The position numbers were made by a program, and so were the translations under genes. From IMG/VR virus record IMGVR_UViG_3300042197_004108, positions 1 to 20,593 of that record: a stretch of 20,593 nt of DNA, one strand, 5' to 3'. Every line of letters starts with the position of its first letter. Positions within the stretch are counted from its first letter, which is position 1. The notes beneath the pieces are model-generated. The model had not been told where the DNA came from. It worked only from the letters and a program-made list of their open reading frames with translations, and searched no databases. Below are positions 1,525-19,785 of this stretch, one piece after another. The DNA comes from a virus.

Positions 1525-2016
1525 TTAACCTTTGTAAATGGCGCTGTTGGCATTGTGTTCGAAGACTTCCACGCTGCGCAAACGCACATTTTTGTTTATC
1601 ACCGCACCGGGCGTGGATTTCAATTCTTCCAGGATAGAGGCCATTTTTTCATAGGCCAGTTCAGCAAACTTTTCACAGCCCACTGCTGGAACAATGCGCA
1701 AATCAACGATGCCTAGATTGTTATATCCACCCTTGATATCCAGCATCTGTTTGAAAAATTCCAGTTGCGGATCATCTTCTGCCACCAATAGAGTGTGATC
1801 AAACATGTATTCAGCCCACTTCTTGAAGCGATCCAGGCCACCAAAGTCCATGACCCAGTTGCGCTCGTCCAGGATGTCGCTCTCGAATATTAACTTGATT
1901 CCAATGCTGTAGCCATGCAGCAGGCTGCAGTGGCTGTGAGTGCTGCGCCACTGGCGGAAGCAGCAGCTGAGTCCACGGTCATTGCCGTAAGTTTTAGTTG
2001 ATAGATATTTGGCCAT
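1525..2016 (-). CDS. queD: 6-carboxy-tetrahydropterin synthase family protein (QueD-like)
   Basis: QueD converts dihydroneopterin triphosphate, the product of FolE, into 6-carboxy-tetrahydropterin in the preQ0/queuosine pathway. In this 163-aa protein the catalytic Cys is in HSHCSLLHGY (C30, with H34 as a metal ligand). MDFGGL (56-61) and FDHTLLVAEDDP (72-83) supply the Asp-His pair. CEKFAEL (114-120) corresponds to the family's PTSENLA motif, and VEVFEHNANSAIY (149-161) holds the conserved Glu that binds the pterin. The usual LHGH reads LHGY and the first zinc His is not obvious, a variant I associate with phage and marine members. A good ribosome binding site (GGAG) sits 8 bases before the ATG, and a near-consensus promoter lies about 80 bases upstream. 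The folE partner is at 5526-6206. QueD and pyruvoyl-tetrahydropterin synthase share this fold, so the exact product is inferred. Confidence 0.85.
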   Translation of the reverse strand: MAKYLSTKTYGNDRGLSCCFRQWRSTHSHCSLLHGYSIGIKLIFESDILDERNWVMDFGGLDRFKKWAEYMFDHTLLVAEDDPQLEFFKQMLDIKGGYNNLGIVDLRIVPAVGCEKFAELAYEKMASILEELKSTPGAVINKNVRLRSVEVFEHNANSAIYKG

Positions 2017-2127: not shown

Positions 2128-2520
2128 TCAGCGTGGAATCTTGTAAGTGTCGGTGTGATAGTTGCCCTGTCCTGACACCACATGACGTACCCCGCCCACG
2201 GGGTCAGGGGTATCCCCATAGCGCCGGGGTATGAGATGCACATGCGGATATCGAACAGTTTGGCCTGCGGCCTTGCCTTGATTGATGCCCACGTTGTAGG
2301 CTTCGCACAACTGATTCCGAACCATGCCATCGCCGTGATCCACTGCGACCTCAAAGCACTTCATGAGGCAATCGCGATCTAGACGCTTGGGCACAAACAG
2401 CAGGTGTCCCAGTGTTACTGGAAATCCGTCCCTGAACACCAGCACGTCCGGGGTTTCCCAAGCCAAATCACTCCAAGGTACGATGCCTTGATCCTGGGCC
2501 TGCTCGTAATCATTGCTCAT
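2128..2520 (-). CDS. HIT-family (Fhit-like) nucleotide hydrolase
   Basis: HIT proteins hydrolyse or transfer nucleotidyl groups, for example splitting dinucleoside polyphosphates or AMP conjugates through a histidine-AMP intermediate. In this 130-aa protein the core motif is YPHVHLIPRRYGD (91-103), preceded by the conserved GQTV (86-89) and followed by DPVGGVR. The normal triad is His-x-His-x-His. Here the first His is replaced by Tyr91, while the central nucleophile (H93) and the last His (H95) remain. FPVTLGHLLFVPKR (33-46) is the other conserved block. The gene overlaps the NAD synthetase stop by 11 bases and has no clear ribosome binding site, so it is probably translated by coupling. A role in clearing adenylated intermediates of NAD synthesis or nucleotide alarmones is inference from position. 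Confidence 0.85.
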   Translation of the reverse strand: MSNDYEQAQDQGIVPWSDLAWETPDVLVFRDGFPVTLGHLLFVPKRLDRDCLMKCFEVAVDHGDGMVRNQLCEAYNVGINQGKAAGQTVRYPHVHLIPRRYGDTPDPVGGVRHVVSGQGNYHTDTYKIPR

Positions 2521-3289
2521 AATGGTACACCGGTATTGCTGTCATTTTGTGTAGATTCCTTGCGCGTATCTTTCTGTAGGCCTGGAGACACAGTTGTTGC
2601 TTAGGATCCATGGGCCAGACATTGTCTTGATCCTGCTGCATGGCCAATTCAAGTTCAGCATAGGTCATGCCCAGTTGATCCTGGTCAGTGCGCCCATCAT
2701 CCCATAGGCCATCTGTGGGCGGTGCGGAGATGATGGCATCAAGTATGCCCAGCTCACGCCCCAGCTGCCAAACCTGTGTTTTCATCAGGTCGCCTATGGG
2801 ACTGATGTCTACTCCACCATCGCCATACTTGGTGAAAAATCCCACACCGAAATCTTCCACGCGATTGCCAGTGCCCACCACTATGCCATCAGTGCTTTGA
2901 GCGGCTTGGTACAGCATGGTCATTCTTAATCTGCTGCGACTGTTGGCCAAGGCCAGATCACTGTAGAGGTTGTTGGCGAGGGCCACGTGTTCCAGTGAGG
3001 CAAACACACCACCCAAGTCAAGGTTTTGATGCCGCACATTGATGAAGTTTTTGGTCAACCAAGCAGCGTGGGCCAAGCTCAGATTGTGCGTGTGTTGGCT
3101 CTGGCGTATGGGCAAGGTCAAGACCAGAACCGGCATGCCAGTGCGAGCACATAGAGTGCTGACCACGGCGCTGTCAATGCCACCCGACACACCCACCACC
3201 AGAGTCTTGATGGCATGGGCTTGTGCGTAGTCCAGGATCCAGTTGCTGATGTCGTGAGCCAGCAGTTGTGAGCCCGATTCCTCTAGCAT
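2510..3289 (-). CDS. nadE: NH3-dependent NAD synthetase
   Basis: NadE makes NAD from nicotinate adenine dinucleotide, ATP and ammonia, the last step of NAD synthesis. This 259-aa protein has the PP-loop motif VGVSGGIDSAVVS (32-44) that binds ATP pyrophosphate. It also has IVVGTGNRVEDFGVGFFTKYGDGGVDISPIGDLMKT, the second half of the active site (about 136-171), and PTDGLWDDGRTDQDQLGMTY (191-210). It has no glutaminase domain, so it is the ammonia-using form, and its length is normal for that class. The ATG is 1 base after the upstream stop (TGACATG), with AGGA 5 bases before it. It is followed by the HIT gene. Phages that boost NAD supply are known; here the gene may restore NAD consumed in infection or by NAD-depleting defences. 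Confidence 0.92.
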   Translation of the reverse strand: MLEESGSQLLAHDISNWILDYAQAHAIKTLVVGVSGGIDSAVVSTLCARTGMPVLVLTLPIRQSQHTHNLSLAHAAWLTKNFINVRHQNLDLGGVFASLEHVALANNLYSDLALANSRSRLRMTMLYQAAQSTDGIVVGTGNRVEDFGVGFFTKYGDGGVDISPIGDLMKTQVWQLGRELGILDAIISAPPTDGLWDDGRTDQDQLGMTYAELELAMQQDQDNVWPMDPKQQLCLQAYRKIRARNLHKMTAIPVYHYEQ

Positions 3290-5525: not shown

Positions 5526-6206
5526 TTACGAATGCCCCTTCATGCTCAAGCAGATATCGTAAAACTCCTGCTTGAGTGCGGGATCTGTGGAAAAAGCACC
5601 CAGCATGATGGCAGTGGTCATGTCAGACTCATGCTCGCGCACGCCGCGCTGCGTCATGCAGTGATGCTCGGCCTTGACCAGCACAGCAATATGCTGCGTC
5701 TTGGCATACTTCTTGAGCGCTTCTGCGATCTGCGTGGTCATTTCTTCCTGGATCTGTGGGCGTTCACAGATATGGTGCACCAAGCGATTGAACTTGCTGA
5801 GTCCGATCACTTCGTTTTCTGGCACGATGCCTACCCAACAGCGCCCAACGATGTTCTGGAAGTGGTGCGCACAAGTGCTGCGTATGCTGATAGGGCCTGT
5901 GGTGTAAAGGCTTTGATAGCCCATGTTGGGAAACGCGGTGACCTTGGGCACAGGACGATAGCGTCCAGAAAACGTTTCCTTGACAAACATCTTGGCCACG
6001 CGCCGAGCAGTGTCCTGTGTGTTGTGGTCATGGTCAGTATCAATCACCAAGCTTTCAAGAACGGTCTGGAAGTTGGCAGCTACTTCATCCACAAGTTGCT
6101 CAAGCTCGTTGTCATATACAAACTCTGCAATGTTGTCGTTGCTGTGGTATCTTGCACCAGCTGCTTCGATGCGTTGTCTAATGGTATTGCTGATTTTTTC
6201 TGTCAT
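5526..6206 (-). CDS. folE: GTP cyclohydrolase I
   Basis: FolE converts GTP to 7,8-dihydroneopterin triphosphate, the first step of both folate and 7-deazaguanine (queuosine, preQ0) synthesis. The 226-aa length matches the family. Zinc ligands are visible in STCAHHFQNIVGR (C112 and H115) and EHHCMTQRGVRE (C183). The usual CEHH reads CAHH. VIGLSKFNRLV (133-143) is the conserved substrate-binding block, and the TARRVAKM segment (66-73) matches the family's N-terminal helix. A promoter-like TATAAT sits 22 bases upstream, and AGAG serves as a modest ribosome binding site. With queD at 1525-2016 and the transglycosylase-fold gene at 10931-12472, deazaguanine synthesis is the likely role; folate supply for nucleotide synthesis is the alternative. 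Confidence 0.93.
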   Translation of the reverse strand: MTEKISNTIRQRIEAAGARYHSNDNIAEFVYDNELEQLVDEVAANFQTVLESLVIDTDHDHNTQDTARRVAKMFVKETFSGRYRPVPKVTAFPNMGYQSLYTTGPISIRSTCAHHFQNIVGRCWVGIVPENEVIGLSKFNRLVHHICERPQIQEEMTTQIAEALKKYAKTQHIAVLVKAEHHCMTQRGVREHESDMTTAIMLGAFSTDPALKQEFYDICLSMKGHS

Positions 6207-6266: not shown

Positions 6267-7223
6267 TCAGCTTTGTGCCTGGGTCCATGTCCAGGCATGA
6301 TCAATCATGTCCGAAATGGTGTATTTTAATTCACTCCCAGATACCTTGTGCCATTTCGCAGCATCGGCAGTCAAGACCACGCTGTCTCCGGCGCGCCGTG
6401 CATGATCCTGGATGGACAGAGTCTTGCCCGTGATCTCTTGTGACTGCTGTATCACTGACCTATTGCTGGTGCCCACACTGGTACCGAGATTGAATATGCC
6501 TGTGTAGGCATGCTCGCAGGCCATGACATGGGCCTGGGCAATGTCCCAAACATGCACATAGTCTCTCACACAGGTACCATCCGCGGTATCATAATCTGTG
6601 CCATAGAGATGGAAGATGTCACTGTTTTTGAGGCATTGCAGAACCCGGGATATAAGATGCTTGGCGTCGCTGGCCTGACCATGCCGACCACGAGGATCAG
6701 CTCCACAGGCATTGAAATAACGAAACACTGTATATTCCATGCCATAGGCTCTGTAATAACTTTCCAACAACCACTCGGTCATGAGCTTGCTTTCCCCATA
6801 GGGCGAAATGGGCAAGGCAGGATCTATTTCCTGACAGGGAATCATGAGTGGGTCACCGTAACAGGCAGCGGTGCTGCTGAAAACAATGCGTGTTTGGAGC
6901 TGGTTGACTCTCAGATATTCCACCAGCCGCTGGGTTTTGACAAAGTTGTTGTCGTAGTACAGCGCAGGATCGCTCATGCTTTCTTCCACACTGACACTGG
7001 CAGCACAGTGTACAATGACATCAGGCTCATGATGCTGGATCCAATGCAAGGCATCGTCGCTGGCAAAGTCGCCCACGAACATGCGATTGTTGGCAGAGAG
7101 CTCGTTGAGCCGGCTGGGCGGCATCTTGATATCCAGCATGAGAACCTCATGTCCTGCGTCCATGAGATTCAGCACAGTCTGTCCGCCAATATAGCCGCTG
7201 GATCCGGTCACTAGTATCTTCAT
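6267..7223 (-). CDS. galE: UDP-glucose 4-epimerase-like SDR enzyme
   Basis: This 318-aa protein is an extended short-chain dehydrogenase/reductase. It has the NAD-binding GSSGYIG (7-13) and Asp31 after the second strand. FSSTAACYG (115-123) and SPYGESK (140-146) supply the catalytic Ser/Thr, Tyr142 and Lys146. RYFNACGADP and CVRDYVHVWDIAQAH are hallmark GalE sequences. GalE interconverts UDP-glucose and UDP-galactose using bound NAD. E. coli GalE has 338 residues, so this one is slightly short, and related epimerases acting on other UDP-sugars cannot be excluded. GGAG lies 9 bases before the ATG. It lies 36 bases downstream of the GT-B gene, so it most likely supplies the sugar donor for that transferase. 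Confidence 0.88.
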   Translation of the reverse strand: MKILVTGSSGYIGGQTVLNLMDAGHEVLMLDIKMPPSRLNELSANNRMFVGDFASDDALHWIQHHEPDVIVHCAASVSVEESMSDPALYYDNNFVKTQRLVEYLRVNQLQTRIVFSSTAACYGDPLMIPCQEIDPALPISPYGESKLMTEWLLESYYRAYGMEYTVFRYFNACGADPRGRHGQASDAKHLISRVLQCLKNSDIFHLYGTDYDTADGTCVRDYVHVWDIAQAHVMACEHAYTGIFNLGTSVGTSNRSVIQQSQEITGKTLSIQDHARRAGDSVVLTADAAKWHKVSGSELKYTISDMIDHAWTWTQAQS

Positions 7224-7259: not shown

Positions 7260-8483
7260 TTACAGATCTTGATATTCACAGAACTGCGGAGCCAGTTTGA
7301 GTTTGTACTTGGCCTCAGGCACATGATCGCGATAGCGATTACCATTGCGATTCCACTGCTCGCCCTGGCCCGTGATGATGTCCACGATGCGATCCACAGT
7401 GCCGTTGGTCCAGTCCGAAATCACGCCCATGTTGTGATGTGGTTGGTTAAGCAGATTGGTAAGCTTGCCCACGGCATCGTCTTCGCTCCAGGGCACGTAC
7501 ATGCGCTCGGGATCGTTGGCAAAAGTTTCAGGGAAGCTGCGATAGGCTGGATACAATACGTTACATCCCAGGGCATCTGCTTCACTCACAGTGTTGCTGA
7601 CCCAGTCCTGCAAGGCACAGTTGAACAGCACTCTAGTATCGTTCAGGAGCTCATAGTATTGATTCTTGCTGAGATTTTCATAGATTTCCAGCTTGCCCTG
7701 GGCTGCCATGCTCCGCGCACGTTGCACATATTCAGGATTGTTGCTGCGCAACGGACCGCCTGAGAATACTGCGAACCGGGTGTCAGGCGCTACTTGCTCC
7801 TGATATCGTTCCGCGAGATCCATGAAGAAGCCAGGTTGCTTTTCTTGATCAAATCTTGCAGCAAAGGCCACTCTGCGAGTGCGCTGGCTGAAGTTGCGGA
7901 TTTGGTCTGCGCCCCCGATGCGCTCCTGTACTTCCTCCTTGCCAAAGGCTAGACCGGAAATATTATAGATAGGAGCACGCCAACCAGCAATGCGCATATG
8001 AGCAACCATTTCCTCGTTTGACGCCAGGACCGCGGTTGCAAAACAATTGACCATTTTTTCATATAAATCCATCCAGGGCTGCATGCCCCATACATGTACA
8101 AAATCATCGGGATCGATGCTCTGGGCCAGGCATCGAACAAAGATACGAGGGCGCTGGGACTCAGGAACTTGATCCAGGATATACGGGAGACTTTCCATCC
8201 CAGGTTGGAACATGTCTTCGAAATAGACGACATCTTCACTGGTGACATCGCCCTGCTGCATGAGCCGCACAAGATTCATCATCTGGCTCATGGCAAAATA
8301 ACTGCGACCGTGTGCGTCCAAGACCTGGCCCACAGAGATTTTTTTACTGTGGTCTAAGTTCAATCCAGGCACATAAACAACGTCTAGTCCGCGGCGTTCA
8401 AAAACTCTGCGATTCCATTCGGTCAACTGGAGAGTGTATCGAGCTTCGTAGGACTCTAGACCCATGTAAAATAATTTACGCAT
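7260..8483 (-). CDS. GT-B fold glycosyltransferase
   Basis: The 407-aa protein has the two-domain layout of GT-B glycosyltransferases. The C-terminal domain starts around VAFAARFDQEKQP (205-217), the usual donor-domain opening. A glycine-rich turn follows (AVFSGGPLRSNNP, 238-250). LFNCALQDWVSNTVSEADAL (286-305) contains the conserved Glu that binds the nucleotide sugar, and GCNVLYPAYRSFPE completes the GT4-type signature. No membrane segment is present. AGGA is placed 4 bases before the ATG. It sits between a 72-aa gene and galE. T4-like phages use GT-B enzymes (alpha- and beta-glucosyltransferases) to decorate modified DNA bases, and this gene is in the same gene block as the DpdA-like gene. 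Glycosylation of DNA is therefore possible but not shown; virion or host-surface glycans are alternatives. Confidence 0.75.
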   Translation of the reverse strand: MRKLFYMGLESYEARYTLQLTEWNRRVFERRGLDVVYVPGLNLDHSKKISVGQVLDAHGRSYFAMSQMMNLVRLMQQGDVTSEDVVYFEDMFQPGMESLPYILDQVPESQRPRIFVRCLAQSIDPDDFVHVWGMQPWMDLYEKMVNCFATAVLASNEEMVAHMRIAGWRAPIYNISGLAFGKEEVQERIGGADQIRNFSQRTRRVAFAARFDQEKQPGFFMDLAERYQEQVAPDTRFAVFSGGPLRSNNPEYVQRARSMAAQGKLEIYENLSKNQYYELLNDTRVLFNCALQDWVSNTVSEADALGCNVLYPAYRSFPETFANDPERMYVPWSEDDAVGKLTNLLNQPHHNMGVISDWTNGTVDRIVDIITGQGEQWNRNGNRYRDHVPEAKYKLKLAPQFCEYQDL

Positions 8484-8756: not shown

Positions 8757-9194
8757 TCATCCTGACTTGACATATCTGATGTAACTGCCGTTTTCGCCGT
8801 CTTCAGACACTTCAATCCACATGTCTCGACCGGGGTAACGTACGGCTATCGCAGTATACAAATCATCGCTGATCATTTCACAGCTTTTGTGATCTAAAGA
8901 CAACACATTGTCTTGATAGAGACTTTCGCACCAGCGTTTGAGCTGTATGAATTCTATGTCACGGTCATTGTGGAACACCTCAACCCAAACACGAAAATGA
9001 AATATATGTCTGTGTGGGTGACTCAGGAATGATACATCATCTGGGCCACCAGTGGCCAATCGTGGATCAGTGGCTGCAGCAGGATAACAGTGAATGCCCT
9101 CTTTTTGGAAGGTGATCCATATCATGCGTCGGGACGCTTCGCGTCGCGCATCTCTGGCGTCTTTGAGAGCTGCCTGTCTTTGGGCATCAATCAT
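8757..9194 (-). CDS. Uncharacterised 145-aa protein, possible tunnelling-fold (PTPS-like) member
   Basis: The frame is open from a TTG at 9227, but the ATG at 9192-9194 overlaps the upstream TGA as ATGA, so I use that start. The sequence shows HPHRHIFHFRVWVEV, then DIEFIQLKRWCESLY, then LDHKSCEMISDDLYTAI and MWIEVSEDGENGSYI. This order (His pair entering a beta strand, Asp/Glu-Phe before a helix, a Cys-Glu at the start of a second helix, and a closing strand with Glu) resembles 6-pyruvoyl-tetrahydropterin synthase and QueD. No catalytic Cys in the usual place is visible. The likeness is by eye only, and the protein may be unrelated. It lies in the block with the DpdA-like and radical SAM genes. 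Confidence 0.65.
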   Translation of the reverse strand: MIDAQRQAALKDARDARREASRRMIWITFQKEGIHCYPAAATDPRLATGGPDDVSFLSHPHRHIFHFRVWVEVFHNDRDIEFIQLKRWCESLYQDNVLSLDHKSCEMISDDLYTAIAVRYPGRDMWIEVSEDGENGSYIRYVKSG

Positions 9195-9715
9195 GGGATG
9201 GGTTTGTCCTTTTGGTAATGTTGCCAAGGGGTAAAATTTTCGGTGCTCATGAGATCATGTAGTCTGTGGCACCAAACCCCGGGATTGGTGCTGTCAAAGT
9301 CACGATCATCCAGTTTGATCATAGTGTTGTAGTTCCATAGGCGCACATAAGGCACCGATACTCGTATTTGGGGGATAAAGTTATTGTATTCGCACAGACC
9401 GCCTTCGTTGAAATCTTCCGCAGCATCAATGGGAATATCAAGGCTACACAAATAATTTCTTTTAAGGAAGAACATAATCATTTCTTCCCAGGCATGCCAA
9501 TCACCGTTTCTAGCAGGATTATAGGAATGGTTTGCACCAAAGAAAATATGCTTCACAGGATCTCCTATGCTCATAAAGGGGTCTGCCAATATCTTTTCTA
9601 TGGAATCTGTGGTGTGTAATCCCACAACAAACAGAGTTTTCATTCCAAAGGCAGGGGTGCGTTCCACTTCCTGGCCCAAGAAAAAGCCTACATTGTCGTG
9701 TCCGGGCCTATTCAT
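9191..9715 (-). CDS. Uncharacterised 174-aa protein
   Basis: The ATG at 9713-9715 overlaps the stop of the radical SAM gene by 8 bases; a TTG at 9727 would add four residues and is less likely. Notable segments are MKTLFVVGLHTTDSIEKIL, HIFFGANHSYNP, CSLDIPIDAAEDFNEGGLCE and MIKLDDRDFDSTNPGVWCH. The beta-rich opening and the conserved-looking Asn-Pro-Gly-Val-Trp end suggest a folded enzyme-like domain. I cannot assign it to a family. Its stop overlaps the next gene as ATGA. Tight coupling between the radical SAM gene and the possible T-fold gene suggests that the three act in one pathway. Confidence 0.7.
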   Translation of the reverse strand: MNRPGHDNVGFFLGQEVERTPAFGMKTLFVVGLHTTDSIEKILADPFMSIGDPVKHIFFGANHSYNPARNGDWHAWEEMIMFFLKRNYLCSLDIPIDAAEDFNEGGLCEYNNFIPQIRVSVPYVRLWNYNTMIKLDDRDFDSTNPGVWCHRLHDLMSTENFTPWQHYQKDKPIP

Positions 9716-10778
9716 AAAGTTCTCCAAAAATTTCTTGATGACGTATGCCGCGCTGACTATCTATCTTTTCAATACCAGGCATGTGTGTGATGTCACGGTC
9801 TGAATACATGTTCTGGGCAAATTCCAGCAGTTGATCTTGTAACACAGGCAATAGCATTTCACTGTATTGTACAAGATCCTGGCGTAGAAAGTCAATACGT
9901 GATTTAGCCAAATCGCTCCAACTCACAGCACTACCATAGTATGGATTGATGAATATGCGATCCTGGGAGATATGGCACGAGGCAAAATATATGGCTTCTT
10001 GTATGGCCCAGGCCGTGAGCGGGAATAGGATCATGCTGGCTTCCACACGCTCAAAATCCCGCGTGACCTGACGCCAGTTAGATTCAAACACCGACCACTG
10101 CGCAGGATATCTGATGTACTCAAATCTCTGTCCCCTTGATTCAAAGCTCACTATGACCTTGACATTGGGAAATTGCTTCAAAAGTTCCCAAAATGGATTA
10201 TTTTGATAAGTTGTAAGATTGGTATTGACTACGATCTCGCAACCTTGATTCATGATTAACATGCGTTTCAGCAGCAACACATTGCTCTTGATTAGGCTGG
10301 GCTCACCACCCGCCAGGGTCAACATCTCTAACTTCATGAGATCCGAGTCCGCCAACACTGGCACATTACGTTTGCTGGATCCATGCAAGAGTATTTGTTC
10401 CCATCGGCTGCTATACTCGGGGCCACAGTACACGCACGATAGATTGCAGGTGTTCTCAGCCTGTAATTGCAGCGTCCTTAGCCCCACTTCATCATTATTG
10501 AGATGGGGATACATGTTGATATAATCCAATCTATAACTGCGACCAGTGTGTTGTTCTTCTTGCCAACAACGACCGCAATCCCGTGGTTGGGATCCGGATT
10601 CTATGTCGTGACGTATGCGCGTTGCTTCGGATCCTTGCAAGGCGCTGCCCAAATCGCCGTGGTCCAGGTACGTGGCGTTGTTGCAACATATACGCACTTG
10701 GCCATTTGTGTCCACCAGGAGATTATGGCGTACGGCAGCACAATCATTCATCATCAAAGCCATGTCGGTCATAGTCAT
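9708..10778 (-). CDS. Radical SAM protein with N-terminal cysteine cluster
   Basis: Radical SAM enzymes cleave S-adenosylmethionine with a 4Fe-4S cluster to start radical chemistry. The cluster motif is CNLSCVYC (C111, C115, C118), followed by LAGGEPSLI (155-163), the SAM-binding GGE motif, and IVVNTNLTTY. Before the core lies a second Cys group (C31, C32, C68, C71, with CGRCW), resembling a SPASM or twitch-type auxiliary cluster placed at the N-terminus. Such domains are common in enzymes that modify peptides. At 356 aa it is too long, and its motif too far in, to be QueE. The start is uncertain: ATGs at 10778, 10772, 10763, 10754 and 10751 are all possible, and the last two just overlap the DUF465 stop. 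Substrate unknown. Confidence 0.85.
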   Translation of the reverse strand: MTMTDMALMMNDCAAVRHNLLVDTNGQVRICCNNATYLDHGDLGSALQGSEATRIRHDIESGSQPRDCGRCWQEEQHTGRSYRLDYINMYPHLNNDEVGLRTLQLQAENTCNLSCVYCGPEYSSRWEQILLHGSSKRNVPVLADSDLMKLEMLTLAGGEPSLIKSNVLLLKRMLIMNQGCEIVVNTNLTTYQNNPFWELLKQFPNVKVIVSFESRGQRFEYIRYPAQWSVFESNWRQVTRDFERVEASMILFPLTAWAIQEAIYFASCHISQDRIFINPYYGSAVSWSDLAKSRIDFLRQDLVQYSEMLLPVLQDQLLEFAQNMYSDRDITHMPGIEKIDSQRGIRHQEIFGELYE

Positions 10779-10950
10779 GTTCCCACTGGTTCTTTTGCAG
10801 TCGGAACAGTTGATCCTTTAGCAACAATCGTTGTTTTTTGAGATCAGACAGTTGCACATCGTTGTAGCATCCAGTTTTTTCAAGTGCATCGATGCGACGA
10901 TCCAGTTCGGCATGCAATCTCTGTAGTTTTTCAATCTGCTGCTGATACAT
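10744..10950 (-). CDS. DUF465/YdcH-like small coiled-coil protein
   Basis: The 68-aa protein is a helical hairpin with the family pattern LHAELDRRIDALEK, a short loop, then LSDLKKQRLLLKDQLFRLQ. DUF465 (YdcH) proteins are widespread in Proteobacteria and of unknown function. The ATG at 10948-10950 is preceded by GGAG at 10 bases. An ATG at 10971 would add seven residues but has no ribosome binding site. The gene starts inside the end of the transglycosylase-fold gene (20-base overlap) and ends inside the start of the radical SAM gene. This suggests an accessory or assembly role for one of them, or simple gene packing. Confidence 0.7.
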   Translation of the reverse strand: MYQQQIEKLQRLHAELDRRIDALEKTGCYNDVQLSDLKKQRLLLKDQLFRLQKNQWEHDYDRHGFDDE

Positions 10951-12472
10951 CTTGCTGCTGCTCCAAAACATTCAAACTATTGGCGTCAAGCTCATCGCTA
11001 TCGCTGGGCGAGATGTCTTGCTCAAATAAATTATTGAACATGGTATGAGCGTTGACTGCTCGCTTTCCAGTAAATCCTCTCGTGCCCACAACACGTTCCC
11101 ATACTTTAGCATGATCATCAATGATGCGCAGACTCTTATGGCGATCCCGCGCAGCAAAAACACGGTCAATGACTCGGCGCACGTCATAATTGCTGTCAGT
11201 GGGGTGCACCATCATGTCAGGTGAGATGCCTTGATCATAAAGACGGTTGGCTCGCTGCACTGCCTCGATGTGCATCCAAACATTGTGGCCCATGAGCAAA
11301 GCGTAACTGAAACTGTCCCAAGACGTCTTGCCCTCTTTGCCGATCTTGTTGAGATCACCGGGCCGATACACGCAGACATCGGAGATCCGGAGTCGACTGC
11401 TGATGGGGCTGTCTTCGAACGTGGCATGGACGCCATCTTGTGTGACTGCGTCGCAGAAGGATCTGGTGTCGGTGGCATACTTTTTGTCGTCCACAGTGGG
11501 CGACATCTTGTAGCTCCATTTGCCACGATTGTCAGTGGCAATGGTGTGATACAACTGTCCGTTGGCAATGGCCAGGAACGGTGATGCGCAGTCAAACGAA
11601 ATGGTGAAATCAGGGTTATGATATTTTCTTACCGCGCGTTGGATATCGGTAAGCAGCACAGCCCACTCCAGTTTACTGGTGCCCAGGAAGTGCATCCAAT
11701 CATGAAGACCTTGCTGTAGCAAGCCATCGTGTATGAGATGCACCAGGCGTTTCAATACCAGATGCACATCGCACATGTTCTGACCACCCATGGCCCAACC
11801 TTCAAATGGTCGCTGATGTCGGGCAGGATCTGAATAGTCTTTCATGAGACTGTACCAGTGATCCGCTTCGGCGTGATTACCGCCCTGCAGCACGTTCAAG
11901 GTCTTGGTCGTGCCGTAACGGTTGGCCATCCAAAAATCATTGTTGAACTTGGTGGCCGTGACCGCATCTTCATAGCTGGAGATACCGGCCAAGGCCGCCC
12001 ACTCGGGATTGCGATATGTCCAAGTGGGTATGTCCATGGTCATACCGTATGTGGCTATGCCCATTTGCCATTTCAGCACTTCTTCACGTTTGAGCTGTGC
12101 TGCTCGATCTCGGGGATCAGCCCAGCGTCCCGGCCACACGCCCTTGGCGATCTGGAATCCGCCTGAGTCTGCCAGCATGATGGTGCCGGGATCTCGATTT
12201 CGGATCATGTCCTCTTTAGGATAATGCTTGGTGAGATCAAGATTGGCATGTCCCGCTGAGTAAAGACTCCAGCGATATGGGAACAATGCCTTGTGTGGAT
12301 TCAGCCAGTTCATCTGTTCCATGTCTTGTATGCCCGCAGGCATGCGTGACTGGGGCACATATGCATCGGATCTCTGCTTGCCTACGTAGGTAGCATAGAA
12401 GCCAGATATAGCCGGCAGGAACACAGCATAGTCATGCTGCGCAGCAGTTAAGTCGTGTTTTTCAATGGTCAT
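10931..12472 (-). CDS. dpdA: Transglycosylase of the TGT superfamily, DpdA-like
   Basis: TGT enzymes swap guanine for a 7-deazaguanine base; the DpdA branch does so in DNA. The 513-aa protein shows the TGT order: MLADSGGFQ (99-107, catalytic Asp102), MTMDIPTW (144-151), LNVLQGG (192-198), GWAMGG (225-230), HFLGTSKLEW (261-270) and ISFDCASPF (291-299). In the last, Asp294 matches the nucleophile of the bacterial FDCVMPTR motif. The zinc-binding CxCxxC with distal His found near the end of tRNA enzymes is missing, and the C-terminal part has a different, His- and Arg-rich sequence. Length exceeds bacterial TGT (about 375). These points favour DNA over tRNA as substrate, but this is not proven. 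folE and queD in the window could feed it. The start overlaps the sulfotransferase stop by 11 bases. Confidence 0.75.
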   Translation of the reverse strand: MTIEKHDLTAAQHDYAVFLPAISGFYATYVGKQRSDAYVPQSRMPAGIQDMEQMNWLNPHKALFPYRWSLYSAGHANLDLTKHYPKEDMIRNRDPGTIMLADSGGFQIAKGVWPGRWADPRDRAAQLKREEVLKWQMGIATYGMTMDIPTWTYRNPEWAALAGISSYEDAVTATKFNNDFWMANRYGTTKTLNVLQGGNHAEADHWYSLMKDYSDPARHQRPFEGWAMGGQNMCDVHLVLKRLVHLIHDGLLQQGLHDWMHFLGTSKLEWAVLLTDIQRAVRKYHNPDFTISFDCASPFLAIANGQLYHTIATDNRGKWSYKMSPTVDDKKYATDTRSFCDAVTQDGVHATFEDSPISSRLRISDVCVYRPGDLNKIGKEGKTSWDSFSYALLMGHNVWMHIEAVQRANRLYDQGISPDMMVHPTDSNYDVRRVIDRVFAARDRHKSLRIIDDHAKVWERVVGTRGFTGKRAVNAHTMFNNLFEQDISPSDSDELDANSLNVLEQQQDVSAAD

Positions 12473-13400: not shown

Positions 13401-14132
13401 TTATTTGGATTGTGCTGGTAGGATGTAGTTGTAGACAGCGATGCCTGAATCCACAGTGACCTGCATGGCGCCCTCGTCTGAGATCTTGATGACCTTGTCG
13501 CCCACAAGATCCAGGATGCTGATCAACTGTGATTTAGGCCATGACCATGAGTGCTTGAGATTGCCAGTGATATCGGGTTGGAACACAAATTCGCCGGCAT
13601 GTGTGCTGTGATCACCAAAGTAAAACTTTAAGTTTCGATTTTCAGTTCGTACACGAAAATTGCTTTCTTCAGCATTGGCCTGGCTCTGCATCTTGAGTCG
13701 CTGGATACCAGCCACGGTGGGTTCAAACTCCACGTTCCAGGTCACATTTTTCATCTTGGCTGTGCGCAGCTTTTCTGCCACGATCTCTGACGTCATAAAT
13801 CTGTAGTCGTTCTTGAAGTCCCCGGTGGCATTTTCAAAGTGCAGGCCCACTGGTACATCTTCGCCGTTGCGATTCTGTTGGGTCACTGTGATACGGGCAT
13901 CTTCTTTGTATTCAGCCAAGCCCAGGATGATCTTGAGTTTGGCCAGGTTGGGCATGCCAAACGTGCCAATGAACTCGGCCACGGGCGCGTGATATCGTGC
14001 CTGGATCACCACGCTGCGATCTTCTGCCAGCCCGTCGATCACGGTTTCTTGGTCGGTACCCGTGATTTTGATCAGCTCGATGCAGCCTAGATCAAAAGTG
14101 TGTGCTACAAGGTCAAGTAAATGGTCTTTCAT
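13401..14132 (-). CDS. Sliding clamp, T4 gp45-like
   Basis: The sliding clamp is a ring (a trimer in T4) that holds the DNA polymerase on the template and, in T4, also activates late transcription. This 243-aa protein, a little longer than T4 gp45 (228 aa), has the clamp layout of repeated beta-alpha-beta units. Its end (SWSWPKSQLISILDL, then KIKISDEGAMQVT, then VDSGIAVYNYILPA) matches the C-terminal pattern of gp45-type clamps. The ATG overlaps the stop of the methyltransferase-like gene as ATGA. The clamp-loader genes that accompany gp45 in T4 are not next to it. The polymerase two genes upstream has a C-terminal clamp-binding peptide, which supports the assignment. Confidence 0.8.
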   Translation of the reverse strand: MKDHLLDLVAHTFDLGCIELIKITGTDQETVIDGLAEDRSVVIQARYHAPVAEFIGTFGMPNLAKLKIILGLAEYKEDARITVTQQNRNGEDVPVGLHFENATGDFKNDYRFMTSEIVAEKLRTAKMKNVTWNVEFEPTVAGIQRLKMQSQANAEESNFRVRTENRNLKFYFGDHSTHAGEFVFQPDITGNLKHSWSWPKSQLISILDLVGDKVIKISDEGAMQVTVDSGIAVYNYILPAQSK

Positions 14133-15274
14133 GATTGTTTCATCCTACGTTTAATTAATTTTGATAACTGCTGTGGAGTATAGTTATTTCTACAATTGTC
14201 GACAGTGTCTATATTTAGATTGACAGCAGTCATGATAAGGTTTTCTACCTCTGATGCAGTATACAACCTTGCGCTGTCATTGTCAAGGATTTTGTCTATC
14301 TGATCAGGCGATTTATTGTATACTCTGGCCAACGTCTGGCCGGCTTTCCAAGGATCAGTGAAGCCCGGCTTTGTAAGTTCTATCCAGGTGGTGCTGGCCG
14401 AAAGATGATAATGTAAATAGAAATCAAACCCCTGCTCCGTACTTGATTCTATGAACCATGACAGTGGTGAAAATGTTTGTGTGCCTTGTTCGGCGTTGAT
14501 GGCTCCGGCCCATCTGTCGCAGTCATTTATGGTACACAACAATCTACCGCCGGGTGCTAATATTTTGAAGATTGATTTCAAGTACAGTTGGATAGTGCTG
14601 GGCCTTTTGTAATTAAAAAAATTATAAACTAAACAACTGTCAAATTGTTGCGATGGAAGATTACCCAACAATAGTGCTGTATCGCCCGCGGGCAAGGTCA
14701 GGGGATCTGTGATAGTTTGGGGATAATCTCCTGGTTCTTTTATCACATATTTACGCAGTCTTCCTTGATACAGCGGCGGGAATTGCAACACACAGGCCTT
14801 CATGAGATCATCATGGGTATCAGCTAGATACAAGGGATCAAAACCAACCCAATGAGGGATCAAGTTTGCAGAGCCAGGACGTATGATAATACCAGGTTTT
14901 CTCCAATCGCCCAAAAGGCGCACACGATTCTGCACATATTCAACAGCATTTTGATCAAGATCAAGTTCTATCAATTTATCATATCCGGCCGCAAAGTTTG
15001 ATTCGCTTCTGCTGAACAAATCGGGCCAATGTGATTTAATAAGATTATCGAGTTCCCTGACTATCTGCCGTATCATGCCATGGTAAGAGTCTAGGCTGCG
15101 GTCCCAGTGCTGCCTAGTTTCTTCTAGAGTTGGGTACAGGTTGGTGTAAAATGCCGCGTTTGAAATCAATGAATAAACTGGCATCAATATATTTTCAATC
15201 AATTGTCGATCGTGGTGAGGCTGCCATACCTCATCAATGGCATTTTTCAATTTAAGTAGGTCCGCCAACTTCAT
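14129..15274 (-). CDS. Methyltransferase-like protein, degenerate SAM site
   Basis: In this 381-aa protein the stretch YLKSIFKILAPGGRLLCTIND (about residues 230-250) is typical of the motif VI region of class I methyltransferases. Upstream HWVGFDPLYLADTHDDLM may be the strand II and Asp region. FDSCLVYNFFNY just before the motif VI region fits motif IV. The glycine-rich motif I is not visible in its usual form; the corresponding place reads KPGIIIRPGSANLI. The first 130 residues are helical and have no known domain. The gene lies between polymerase and clamp, with 4-base ATGA overlaps on both sides, so it is translated with them. It may be a SAM-binding enzyme, or a fold that has lost catalysis and serves as a replication accessory. 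No family recognised. Confidence 0.6.
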   Translation of the reverse strand: MKLADLLKLKNAIDEVWQPHHDRQLIENILMPVYSLISNAAFYTNLYPTLEETRQHWDRSLDSYHGMIRQIVRELDNLIKSHWPDLFSRSESNFAAGYDKLIELDLDQNAVEYVQNRVRLLGDWRKPGIIIRPGSANLIPHWVGFDPLYLADTHDDLMKACVLQFPPLYQGRLRKYVIKEPGDYPQTITDPLTLPAGDTALLLGNLPSQQFDSCLVYNFFNYKRPSTIQLYLKSIFKILAPGGRLLCTINDCDRWAGAINAEQGTQTFSPLSWFIESSTEQGFDFYLHYHLSASTTWIELTKPGFTDPWKAGQTLARVYNKSPDQIDKILDNDSARLYTASEVENLIMTAVNLNIDTVDNCRNNYTPQQLSKLIKRRMKQS

Positions 15275-17931
15275 GAAAAGTCAAACAATGATTGAAAAGT
15301 GTTGGCTGTGTTTGTGGCTGATTCTAGGTCCCACTGCAACACACCCAAGAGATTGGTAATTTTTGAGTCAATGACGGTGGTTTCCATAAGGGCATCATCA
15401 AACGGCAACTCCTTGAACCACTGCGGTAGATGTAGTTCGTCTGTGGGATAAGCGATGCTGGTCCAGTTCAAGGGATTGTCCTTGAGCTTGCACACAATGA
15501 CTTTCATGCCATCCATGATGGTCATGCTGTAGTTGTCGCTGTTCATGCGCTTGAGTTCATTCCAGTTCATGGCCGCACGAACATGTCCTGGCATGTTGGT
15601 TTTGCCCTCGGCAGTTTCGCGCCTGGTATAGGTAGTTAGGTTATTAACTCGTTTGGGTGTGCCTTTTTCCCAGCCCGGGCGGTCGCGGAATCCAAGTTTG
15701 AAGTCACGTATTTTTTCAACTACCTGTTCTCGCAGTTCGCCCTGCAACACATTGTTCAGCACATCACTGAGAAATTCTTGAATGACTTTGGGAGTATCTG
15801 ATCTTTTGAGATCAAGCCCCATGGCCTTGACCTTGCCTGCGCGACCATTGACGTCGAGGCGCTTGCCTTCCTTGTCGATGATCATGACAGCGTAGCGTTT
15901 CTTGGTGATAAACAACCCTTTGCTGGCCACCAGCTCACGACCCCCGCGTATCACAGAGCCTAGTTCACGCGGCACATGAAAGGCCCGTTCCATGAAGCCT
16001 GGAAAACTCTGATTGACTTGTTCAGCGACTCCGTCATACAACTGTATGCAAGTTTCTGCGTTCCAAGACATACGACCCGATTCAACCTCGCTGCGCAGTG
16101 CGGGCCAAGCCGAAAAGTAGCATGAATCAGTGTCCCCATAAATGATGGCATCGCCCACATGATCGTAGCGTCCTGTGATACACTCGTTGACGTATGCGTC
16201 CATGTGTCGTGCAATAGCCCGTCCAGTCAGCGTGGTGCTTTGGCCGATGCGTTTATCAAAAAACCTACAGCCGGGATTGAGAATCGCTCCATACAGGCTG
16301 TTCAAGTTAATCTTTTTGACCAGCTGTCGTTTGTCCCAATATTCCTCTTGTTCTTTGTTGTCTGCCTGTTTTAGTTTGGCCTGCATCTCTTTTCGTTCTG
16401 CGTACCAGCGTTTCAGCAGTCCCGGAATCACGGCTTCTGTCTCAAACGTGAATATGGTTCCGTTGGCACTGAGGATCCATGGGCGATTGCTGTCAAAAAT
16501 CATGTGCCAAATTTCTGCAGCACTGTGGATGCTTTCTTCACCATTTTGCCAGTCTATAGTTATCTCAGTGCCTCGCTGCTGTTCCATGACAGCGGTGTAT
16601 TCCAGCGTGCCAAACAAGCCTTCCCAAGCCGCTGCAAAGCTGGCACCACCTGCTTGCTTTTCCGCGATGTAGCGGTCGGTCATGATGGGTCGCAGTTGAC
16701 CCACAATGGTTTCTGGTCCCATATTGAGGGCTCGGATGGTGCTGGGGTACAGACTATTGATGTCAATGCTGCCCACCCAATCATGCATGCCTTTTTTGGG
16801 AGTGGCCACATATGCACCCGCGGCCTGCGTTTCTTCGTCAGTGAGTTGCTCGCGCCGGTTGGGTACCACCATGCCACGCTCGTGCGCTTCGTTGATAATG
16901 GCCTGTTCTGTCACAGCCACAGCGCCCATGGTGGTGGGCAGCAGCACTGTGTTTTCATGCGCCAGTGTGTTGGCTAGGTCCAGGAAACGTAGTTTGCGAT
17001 CAATATTGGCCAGTAGTGTCACGTCCTGGCGGTTGTATTCTATGAATGTTTTCCAGTTCTGGTTGTAGAGCTGGTCCAATGTGCCTTCGAACGCTGTTTT
17101 GCTGCCCAGTTCTTCGTATTCACCAATGGCATCCAGGCTGTAACTGTGACGTTCCTCATAGGTGTACTTGCGGTACAGTTGCATGTAGTCTAGGTGTACG
17201 CGACCAACAAGATCAAACGTGATGTTTTCTGCACCAAATCTCTCAAAGGTGCGCTGCTTGGGCAACTGATTCCAAAGACAAAAGCGCCTCGTGTCGTCCT
17301 TGCTCAGCACTCTAGTCACGCGCTGCACCACGTAAGGTATGTCGTATCCCTCAGAGTTCCAACCACTCACAATGTCTGCGTCACCGATAAGATTTAGAAA
17401 AGTGTCCAATAACTCGCTTTCCTCGCGGAACACAAAGGTATTGGGAAATTCTCGCGCCACTTCGTGCGCTGTTTCATCACTCATGTGACGCGGTGGTACC
17501 ACCAAGGTGACCAGTTGGTCCAACCAGTCCAAGTACACTGATATGGCAGTGATTGGATTGAATGGATCTTCAGGGCGGCTAAATCCGCGTTCGGGATCAA
17601 AGTCTACTTCAATGTCAAAGAATGCTGTGTGCAGTCGCGGGGCGTCTTGACCCTTGTAGTTCTCTTCCAGGCAGCGGAATATGGGATTGATGTCTGCTTC
17701 ATACAAGGTCTTGCCCCGCTGCATGGCCAGTTCCTTGCGGAATTCTTTTTTATGGCGAGTAGAGAATCGAGCCACCGGTGATCCAAAAATCGATCGGAAC
17801 TTGCCGCGAGGATCATCATAATAGAAGATGTAGTTTGCAGGGTGTTCTTCATAGTATCGTTCACCGTTGCGTCGGCCTACTATGTGTATGCGATCTTTTT
17901 CGCGATCAAAAAGTGCATCAATGTAACTCAT
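15271..17931 (-). CDS. Family B DNA polymerase, T4 gp43-like
   Basis: This is the replicative polymerase with 3'-5' proofreading exonuclease. Exonuclease motifs are FFDIEVD (104-110; Asp106, Glu108), GWNSEGYDIPY (190-200; Asp197) and EYNRQDVT (298-305; Asp303). Polymerase motif A is SIDINSLYPS (388-397; Asp390), motif B is KKINLNSLYGAILNPG (539-554) and motif C is IIYGDTDSCYF (596-606; Asp600 and Asp602). KKRYAVMI follows. The 886 residues match T4 gp43 (898). The last residues, TFQSLFDFS, resemble the clamp-binding tail of T4-type polymerases. All catalytic residues are present and there is no intein or split. GGAG lies 7 bases before the ATG, and a good sigma-70 promoter lies 61-89 bases upstream. 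The gene starts a run continuing through the clamp. Confidence 0.97.
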   Translation of the reverse strand: MSYIDALFDREKDRIHIVGRRNGERYYEEHPANYIFYYDDPRGKFRSIFGSPVARFSTRHKKEFRKELAMQRGKTLYEADINPIFRCLEENYKGQDAPRLHTAFFDIEVDFDPERGFSRPEDPFNPITAISVYLDWLDQLVTLVVPPRHMSDETAHEVAREFPNTFVFREESELLDTFLNLIGDADIVSGWNSEGYDIPYVVQRVTRVLSKDDTRRFCLWNQLPKQRTFERFGAENITFDLVGRVHLDYMQLYRKYTYEERHSYSLDAIGEYEELGSKTAFEGTLDQLYNQNWKTFIEYNRQDVTLLANIDRKLRFLDLANTLAHENTVLLPTTMGAVAVTEQAIINEAHERGMVVPNRREQLTDEETQAAGAYVATPKKGMHDWVGSIDINSLYPSTIRALNMGPETIVGQLRPIMTDRYIAEKQAGGASFAAAWEGLFGTLEYTAVMEQQRGTEITIDWQNGEESIHSAAEIWHMIFDSNRPWILSANGTIFTFETEAVIPGLLKRWYAERKEMQAKLKQADNKEQEEYWDKRQLVKKINLNSLYGAILNPGCRFFDKRIGQSTTLTGRAIARHMDAYVNECITGRYDHVGDAIIYGDTDSCYFSAWPALRSEVESGRMSWNAETCIQLYDGVAEQVNQSFPGFMERAFHVPRELGSVIRGGRELVASKGLFITKKRYAVMIIDKEGKRLDVNGRAGKVKAMGLDLKRSDTPKVIQEFLSDVLNNVLQGELREQVVEKIRDFKLGFRDRPGWEKGTPKRVNNLTTYTRRETAEGKTNMPGHVRAAMNWNELKRMNSDNYSMTIMDGMKVIVCKLKDNPLNWTSIAYPTDELHLPQWFKELPFDDALMETTVIDSKITNLLGVLQWDLESATNTANTFQSLFDFS

Positions 17932-18682: not shown

Positions 18683-18711
18683 ATTATACTGTATCTTGTG
18701 TGCTATTGCAA
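18683..18711 (-). promoter_or_regulatory. Sigma-70 promoter for the DsbA-like gene
   Basis: On the minus strand TTGCAA (18711-18706; four of six) lies 17 bases from a perfect TATAAT (18688-18683). The -35 box overlaps the last codons of the radical SAM gene. The message would begin near 18676, a leader of only about 14 bases carrying the AAGGAG site. Confidence 0.65.
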
Positions 18712-19785
18712 GCCACCAAACCGATAAACATTGTCAAAATGATTTACTTTGGCTAACTCGTTCATAGCATTTCTATATTCGGGATGCCGATGATCAAATA
18801 CATCATGATCAAAAAACCTGCCATTAAATGTTCCCCAATCTAGAATACGACTGTACTCTACTATGTCAGCGTTATGACTCATGCTCCAATTATAAAATTC
18901 TTCAATTTCTAGATAATTTGATTGTTGTGCTATCATGCGAGTGTGTACTTTGATGCCAGACGTTTGTTTCTTTTTGGCCAGCCATGACATGGCATTTACG
19001 ATTTGATGCCACTGAGCGCCGCGTCTCAATCGTTCGTAGGTATCGGGTCGGGCAGCGTCGATGGTCACAGTAACAGACTCTACCCGATCTTGCATGCGTT
19101 CAAGCCTGTGCCATCGGGAAGGCATCAAAACTCCATTGGTTTGGATCTTGAGTCGAAGATTGGGCAACTGGACCGGATCCAGATTTGAAACCAATGTCAT
19201 GAGTGTGCGACTGGCAAACAATTCTCCAGATGTACTAAGGAAAAGTCTCAGCTCTTGATCGGTGGGCTCGCTGAATAGGTTGGTAGCTATGGTGTGTGCC
19301 ACTTCATTGTCTCGCGCTGCAGTGTCATGATTTTTCTTTATAATTTCGGTACGACAGCTGGGACAACTAAGATTGCACACTATGTCACCGGCCAGTATTA
19401 TTTCCCGGGGCAGCAGGAATTGTCTGGGATCATCTATGATTTTAGACACAGCAGGAGGTATATTATCCCGTGTATTCAGCAGGTCATTGGCCATGATGCC
19501 GCATCGCTGTTCGTTACAGAACTGATATTTTCCATCTCTGATGCTGGCTCTTATTTCTTGGCTCAGTGGCTTGGATAAAATTTCAGTCAAGGATTCTTCC
19601 ATGATGTTGCCCACTACAGTGGGCATCCATTCTGCGCAGCCACACAAACGCACATTTCCTTCTAGGCCAATTTCCGCAGACACATAAGGACTAAGGCATA
19701 TTTTGCCTTGCAGTTGCTTTACTGCAAAAATTTTGGGGTCAGGCCGGAATTGACGATCTTGTATGATGGGTATCTTGCGCAGCAT
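18703..19785 (-). CDS. Radical SAM protein with N-terminal SPASM-like cysteines
   Basis: The cluster motif is CNLSCPSC (C137, C141, C144), followed by LRLKIQTNGVLMPSRWHRLE and VTVTIDAARPDTYERLRRG, hallmarks of the radical SAM fold. Before the core lies CLSPYVSAEIGLEGNVRLCG with C30, C48, C50 and later C90 and C95, like a SPASM auxiliary-cluster domain moved to the N-terminus. The 360-aa length and layout resemble those of the protein at 9708-10778, but the two sequences differ clearly. SPASM enzymes usually modify peptides, and no small precursor-peptide gene is visible beside it. The start overlaps the stop of the SAH hydrolase gene by 1 base (TGATG), so translation is coupled. Substrate unknown. 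Confidence 0.85.
   Translation of the reverse strand: MLRKIPIIQDRQFRPDPKIFAVKQLQGKICLSPYVSAEIGLEGNVRLCGCAEWMPTVVGNIMEESLTEILSKPLSQEIRASIRDGKYQFCNEQRCGIMANDLLNTRDNIPPAVSKIIDDPRQFLLPREIILAGDIVCNLSCPSCRTEIIKKNHDTAARDNEVAHTIATNLFSEPTDQELRLFLSTSGELFASRTLMTLVSNLDPVQLPNLRLKIQTNGVLMPSRWHRLERMQDRVESVTVTIDAARPDTYERLRRGAQWHQIVNAMSWLAKKKQTSGIKVHTRMIAQQSNYLEIEEFYNWSMSHNADIVEYSRILDWGTFNGRFFDHDVFDHRHPEYRNAMNELAKVNHFDNVYRFGGLQ

Follow-up and report, generated by a model that had tools for sequence, protein, structure and literature searches.

The question raised by the open reading frame at positions 10931 to 12472 (minus strand) of an IMG/VR virus fragment of 20,593 bases, hereafter called the window, is whether its product exchanges guanine in phage DNA and, if so, which base it installs. 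A first-pass annotation had read it as an enzyme with the fold of tRNA-guanine transglycosylases (TGT) and as a likely DNA guanine transglycosylase (DpdA). We consider it likely that the frame encodes a DpdA-type transglycosylase of a subfamily related to DpdA2, which would insert a 7-deazaguanine derived from 7-carboxy-7-deazaguanine (CDG), operate together with a QueC-less gene module, and protect the DNA against restriction.

The open reading frame is intact from ATG to stop and encodes 513 amino acids. Compared with a relative of 88% identity, the mismatches at first, second, and third codon positions number 64, 39, and 195, i.e. they lie mostly at third positions; by this measure, the frame appears to be under purifying selection. 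The TGT motifs quoted in the first-pass annotation, including both catalytic Asp regions, were all located in the protein, i.e. DSGGFQ (starting at D102), QGG (Q196), AMGG (A227), FLGT (F262), and FDCASPF (F293). All 72 non-redundant homologues keep D102, S103, G104, G105, Q107, D147, Q196, G197, G264, and D294, so the motifs are not due to chance. By equivalence with TGT, D102 and D294 are the catalytic aspartates, and D147 and Q196 serve base recognition. This invariance of the catalytic and base-recognition residues argues against a TGT-fold protein that has lost its activity or taken on another role, e.g. a DNA-binding replication accessory, and so does the co-occurrence of the precursor pathway in essentially every large record (see below). 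The large insertions, the altered zinc site, and the conserved synteny with replication genes would suit such a protein, which we nevertheless regard as extremely improbable.

Searches of Pfam, PHROGs, and NCBIfam gave no meaningful match at the thresholds used, the protein did not rise above the cut-off for the Pfam TGT family (PF01702), and sequence searches of the PDB gave no match. The relationship observed in the first-pass annotation therefore escapes the family libraries. An AlphaFold (AF2) model built from 72 sequences had a mean pLDDT of 89.5 and a pTM of 0.90. When it was compared with the PDB using Foldseek, 12 of the 12 matches at E<1e-3 were tRNA-guanine transglycosylases (E values from 2e-6 to 4.5e-5, probability 1.00), and the proposed TGT fold was thus borne out. 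The TM-scores to TGT are modest (0.32–0.40 by query length) because of the large insertions. The matches in BFVD, a library of viral structures, include DpdA2 of Vibrio phage nt-1, a transglycosylase of phage Motura, and a protein of phage phiST, as well as a queuine tRNA-ribosyltransferase of mycobacteriophage Bella96.

To place the protein among the DpdA families, profiles were aligned with hhalign. The family profile matched a profile of seven DpdA2 members with a probability of 93% (P 3.1e-7), and the DSGG, QG, GG, LG, and ISxD motifs were in register. The value for nt-1 DpdA2 alone was P 3.6e-5, and a single-sequence comparison with E. coli TGT was weak (P 1.5e-3). No direct sequence or profile match between DpdA2 and the transglycosylase family was found in either direction tested. 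As the simpler searches miss DpdA2, we treat the transglycosylases as a large unnamed subfamily that is related to, but apparently separate from, DpdA2. At E<=1, the family profile matched nothing in Campylobacter phage CP220 and Halovirus HVTV-1, taken here to stand for the DpdA3 and DpdA4 types. A scan for distant relatives with the protein of Vibrio phage 2.275.O as query also found nothing.

The zinc site had been described as missing. This holds for the CxCxxC motif, which occurs nowhere in the 513 amino acids, but not for the site as a whole, which is, judging from the alignment, altered rather than absent. D365-x-C367 ... H396 aligns with C302-x-C304 ... H333 of E. coli TGT, and the spacing from Cys to His is 29 residues in both proteins (C367/H396 and C304/H333). 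The first Cys is replaced by D365, the position of the third (C307 in E. coli TGT) is variable among the 72 homologues (K/A/R/Q), and two of the four ligand positions are retained. C367 and H396 are present in all 72 homologues and D365 in 71. The CxCxxC motif was also missing from the eight known phage DpdAs checked, i.e. 9g DpdA and the DpdA2 proteins of nt-1, KVP40, pf16, ACP17, BUCT-ZZ01, X1, and Moby, so its absence agrees with a DpdA assignment and does not single out the window protein. If the protein were instead a tRNA-guanine transglycosylase, raising the level of queuosine or a related base in the tRNA of the host or the phage while infection proceeds, its fold and catalytic motifs would be the same, and the two remaining ligands could be accounted for. 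We judge this to be very improbable, given that CxCxxC and a Pfam TGT match are both absent and that its closest kin, DpdA2, comes from a phage with modified DNA (PMC6884629).

The gene neighbourhood also argues for DNA as the substrate. A family B DNA polymerase is encoded at 15271..17931 (minus strand; Pfam DNA_pol_B 2.4e-37, phrog_262), and in 117 of the 120 loci with enough upstream DNA it lies upstream of the transglycosylase gene on the same strand. Between them, at 13401..14132 (minus strand), lies the gene for a phrog_12062 protein of the replication module, which in 132 of the 134 loci with enough DNA lies no more than 2.5 kb upstream from the transglycosylase gene. The order and strand of the three genes are conserved (137 loci). 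This position beside the polymerase, as in the DNA-modifying phage 9g, is a further argument against a tRNA enzyme. A sliding clamp is suspected for the phrog_12062 protein from synteny alone; it matched no PDB profile and not the 9g clamp. On the other side, the gene at 9191..9727 (minus strand) codes for a conserved protein that accompanies the transglycosylase in 119 of 137 loci. Its homologue in Acidovorax phage ACP17, gp122, is encoded directly upstream of DpdA2 (hmmsearch E=1.6e-18). Among the 72 loci whose downstream DNA spans 7 kb or more, homologues of the small protein at 8757..9227 are present in 69, of the glycosyltransferase in 62, of the GalE-like epimerase in 54, and of folE in 62. 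The window also contains two radical SAM proteins of the twitch/SPASM type within one 20 kb fragment (9708–10778 and 18703–19785) and, at the contig edge (19785–20582), an S-adenosylhomocysteine hydrolase, an enzyme uncommon in phages.

The first-pass annotation had proposed that folE and queD supply the precursor. Both genes are indeed present on the minus strand: FolE, GTP cyclohydrolase I and the first step of the pathway, at 5526..6206 (Pfam 2.3e-46), and a QueD-type 6-carboxytetrahydropterin synthase, the second step, at 1525..2016 (Pfam PTPS 4.4e-15, phrog_2389 1.5e-35). QueE is also needed, and queE is not found within the 20.6 kb window. The closest relative (L001, 88% identity) has queE some 12.7 kb downstream from its transglycosylase gene. 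The window ends after 10.9 kb on that side, and its queE is therefore probably located just off the contig. Reading the radical SAM protein at 9708–10778 as QueE was not supported: it matches twitch-domain radical SAM proteins, is present in 13 of 137 loci, and relatives have a separate QueE-like gene.

We searched the whole records of 22 carriers of the transglycosylase, i.e. 19 large IMG/VR contigs, PA5oct, Phosso, and Vibrio phage 2.275.O; IMG/VR records are fragments, most of them incomplete, and the 19 contigs largely represent one lineage, so the counts are not independent. FolE and a QueE-like radical SAM protein (E<1e-38) are present in all 22 records and QueD in 21. In contrast, QueC was above the cut-off in a single record, that of Vibrio phage 2.275.O, which is also the only one with QueF; the canonical set of FolE, QueD, QueE, and QueC was thus not found together in 21 of the 22 carriers. 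QueC was detected in all three control records (nt-1, HVTV-1, and 9g), and genomes submitted as complete (PA5oct, Phosso, ACP17, BUCT-ZZ01, and X1) gave the same picture as the contigs. Three weak QueC matches in relatives stay under the cut-off and span only some 60 positions. The NadE-like NAD synthetase at 2510–3289, which adjoins a HIT-family protein and queD, was dismissed as a QueC substitute, since none of the 137 related loci has a homologue of it. From this gene content, the pathway in the QueC-less carriers seems to stop at CDG, unless a host QueC finishes it. With QueC missing from the lineage, the simple preQ0 picture is probably not valid. The scarcity of QueF (none in 21 of 22 carriers) and of QueC (1 of 22) weighs further against an enzyme acting on tRNA. 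Together with the fold, the 93% DpdA2 profile match, and the polymerase neighbourhood, the pathway genes support the call of a DNA guanine transglycosylase. The transglycosylase homologue of 2.275.O is accompanied by QueC, QueF, and a preQ0-type transporter, and the glycosyltransferase is absent; phages may therefore not all carry the same base.

Two further genes accompany the QueC-less module. The first, at 8757..9227 (minus strand; the start is probably the ATG near 9194), codes for a small phrog_17812 protein with an invariant triad of H46, H72, and H74 that resembles the zinc triad of QueD. It was not accepted as a clear QueD homologue, as hhalign gave only P 0.006; the triad is a resemblance. 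Of the DpdA records tested, all 25 without QueC contain a homologue (ACP17, X1, BUCT-ZZ01, and phiST among them), and none of the nine with QueC does; for these counts, Moby was scored as QueC-holding on a partial match plus annotation, and three contigs and X1 with QueC matches below the cut-off were scored as QueC-less. In four further phages, the gene lies beside folE or one to two genes away from it; QueC is absent in three of them, and the fourth has a partial match. In Vibrio phage Bakedbeans (gp176; L191:6212-7363), the phrog_17812 domain is C-terminal in a protein of 383 aa, where it seems to be joined to a larger N-terminal portion. We propose that the phrog_17812 protein acts on CDG. 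It could be DpdL, a CDG decarboxylase. Cui et al. in 2023 reportedly described dCDG, dDG, DpdA3/4, and DpdL.

The second gene, at 7260..8483 (minus strand), encodes a glycosyltransferase of 407 aa with a GT-B fold (GT4-like). Its AlphaFold model had a pLDDT of 80.5, and the PDB fold matches are glycosyltransferases, e.g. BshA, MshA, and glycogen synthase. It is present in 21 of the 22 carrier records, the exception being Vibrio phage 2.275.O, and is absent from eight records with QueC (2.275.O, nt-1, HVTV-1, 9g, CP220, pf16, KVP40, and Moby). In a tblastn search, it matched 15 of 50,697 phage records, i.e. those of eleven PA5oct-like phages, two of ACP17, and one each of BUCT-ZZ01 (66% identity) and X1. 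Each of the 15 also has a DpdA, listed independently, that belongs either to the transglycosylase family or to DpdA2; they represent four lineages. The glycosyltransferase gene adjoins the transglycosylase gene or is one gene away in PA5oct, ACP17, BUCT-ZZ01, and X1. In Phosso, the transglycosylase gene is far away, and the glycosyltransferase gene remains with folE, queE, and the phrog_17812 gene. The pair of glycosyltransferase and phrog_17812 protein also accompanies DpdA2 in three other QueC-less phages, ACP17, X1, and BUCT-ZZ01. By these distributions, the glycosyltransferase appears to be specifically associated with QueC-less DpdA phages. We propose that it may decorate the 7-deazaguanine; the GalE-like NDP-sugar epimerase encoded after it (6267..7223, minus strand; Pfam Epimerase 3.9e-50) is a candidate supplier of the sugar donor.

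Distant homologues of the glycosyltransferase occur in Xanthomonas PhiXhv phages. PhiXhv-12 holds QueC as well, and its glycosyltransferase gene is two genes away from a gene of the Gat-QueC type and adjoins a deacetylase gene. The Gat-QueC-type gene, a gene for a GlcNAc-malate deacetylase-like protein, and the glycosyltransferase gene are consecutive there (L185:5735-8969), a hint at decoration with an amino sugar. Taking 2.275.O, phiST, and PhiXhv-12 together, the base and the partner genes appear to vary across the superfamily.

Two readings of the base thus have to be weighed. The base could be a known one, i.e. CDG, 7-deazaguanine, or preQ0 made via a host QueC, while the glycosyltransferase and GalE have other roles, e.g. 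at the cell surface or in glycosylating a pterin that FolE/QueD produce. Hosts with a queuosine pathway possess QueC and could supply preQ0, and phiST has a DpdA-like protein, FolE, QueD, QueE, and the phrog_17812 protein without QueC or a glycosyltransferase. In addition, a tetrahydrobiopterin glucosyltransferase is among the fold matches, and the window contains another glycosyltransferase gene (648–1589). We give a known base close to an even chance. Its weakness is that every phage record matching the window glycosyltransferase has a DpdA, in four lineages, and that the glycosyltransferase gene of Phosso is kept with folE, queE, and the phrog_17812 gene despite the distant transglycosylase gene. 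Alternatively, the base could be an undescribed hypermodified one, a sugar-decorated 7-deazaguanine that is made from CDG without QueC, processed by the phrog_17812 protein, and inserted by DpdA2 or the new DpdA subfamily. We hold this reading tentatively, at somewhat less than an even chance.

The proposed series of reactions would be as follows. FolE and QueD, together with QueE, whose gene in relatives lies just past the part matching the contig, would convert GTP to CDG, which in most phages of the family, lacking QueC, is probably not converted to preQ0. The QueD-like small protein and the glycosyltransferase, with the GalE-like epimerase, may use CDG as their substrate, or else the base once it is in the DNA. 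If the mechanism follows that of TGT, D294 would be the nucleophile that attacks C1' of deoxyguanosine, upon which guanine leaves, and D102 the acid/base; the 7-deazaguanine base would be installed by covalent double displacement. The exchange of guanine in the phage DNA would follow replication, and the modified DNA would be expected to resist host restriction nucleases.

The family is large. A scan of IMG/VR yielded at least 600 matching stretches, all of which encode a transglycosylase relative; viral metagenomes contain several hundred members at the least. A member is also encoded in 13 of 50,697 phage records, those of eleven PA5oct-like jumbo phages of Pseudomonas, Sinorhizobium phage Phosso, and Vibrio phage 2.275.O. 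The closest member in a cultured phage is that of PA5oct (36.5% identity over 79%). More distant homologues, with 27–30% identity (plus one short segment of 35%), are found in contigs from alpha- and betaproteobacterial genomes (loci L161, L163, and L165 to L176), with no que genes detectable within 10 kb of them. In L161, L163, L166, and L169, the homologue adjoins a protein of 550–640 aa without a Pfam or PADLOC family, and the Rhodobacteraceae homologues adjoin a glycosyltransferase-like protein and a protein of 585 aa. In an Azospirillum picis contig (L172:9962-13493), downstream of the homologue lies a reverse transcriptase that matches the PADLOC family RT_UG9_small (E 1.5e-238), a defence-associated family. 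Three MAG contigs (L178, L179, and L181) encode weakly similar TGT-like proteins (21–25% identity) together with queE and queC, two of them also with folE and queD; CxCxxC is intact in the L178 protein.

For PA5oct, a system for the synthesis and incorporation of deazaguanine, with a transglycosylase, was already predicted, and the passage on it does not describe the loss of QueC, the glycosyltransferase, or the phrog_17812 protein (PMC7824862). The genome paper of MIJ3 reports no DNA modification (PMC6892783). In the literature searched, no description of the QueC-less module or its glycosyltransferase was found. The family assignment would identify the guanine-modifying enzyme of the jumbo phages PA5oct, Paride, Callisto, and MIJ3, which are studied for therapy. 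The QueC-less module with its own glycosyltransferase predicts a sugar-bearing 7-deazaguanine in the DNA, which is testable in cultured phages. If true, this would be a new branch of phage DNA hypermodification, with two enzymes named for it.

Bacterial TGT, represented by the E. coli and Zymomonas enzymes, shares with the window protein the fold, the catalytic residues (D89 and D264 correspond to D102 and D294), and equivalents of D143, Q187, and H333 (H396). It differs in that the window protein has DxCxx(K/A/R) in place of CxCxxC, insertions, a larger size, and another gene context. Phage 9g, which uses Gat-QueC and makes dG+ (PMC6884629), has the same order of polymerase, clamp, dpdA, folE, and queD, and its DpdA also lacks CxCxxC; however, 9g DpdA (DpdA1) is a protein of 317 aa without detectable sequence similarity. 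The closest known system is that of DpdA2, which was described together with its phages and the FolE-QueD-QueE-QueC pathway (PMC6884629) and for which the DNA of Vibrio phage nt-1 is known to be modified (PMC6884629). Both proteins have the TGT fold, the order DSGG[FL]Q ... GG ... LG ... ISxD, and no CxCxxC, and both have folE, queD, and queE nearby. The C-terminal half of the window transglycosylase differs and retains D-x-C ... H-N. The DpdA2 phages ACP17, X1, and BUCT-ZZ01 also share the glycosyltransferase and the phrog_17812 protein with the window, whereas in nt-1, KVP40, and pf16 QueC is present and the glycosyltransferase missing. By this comparison, the QueC-less module is the new element, and it points to a CDG-derived base that is possibly glycosylated.
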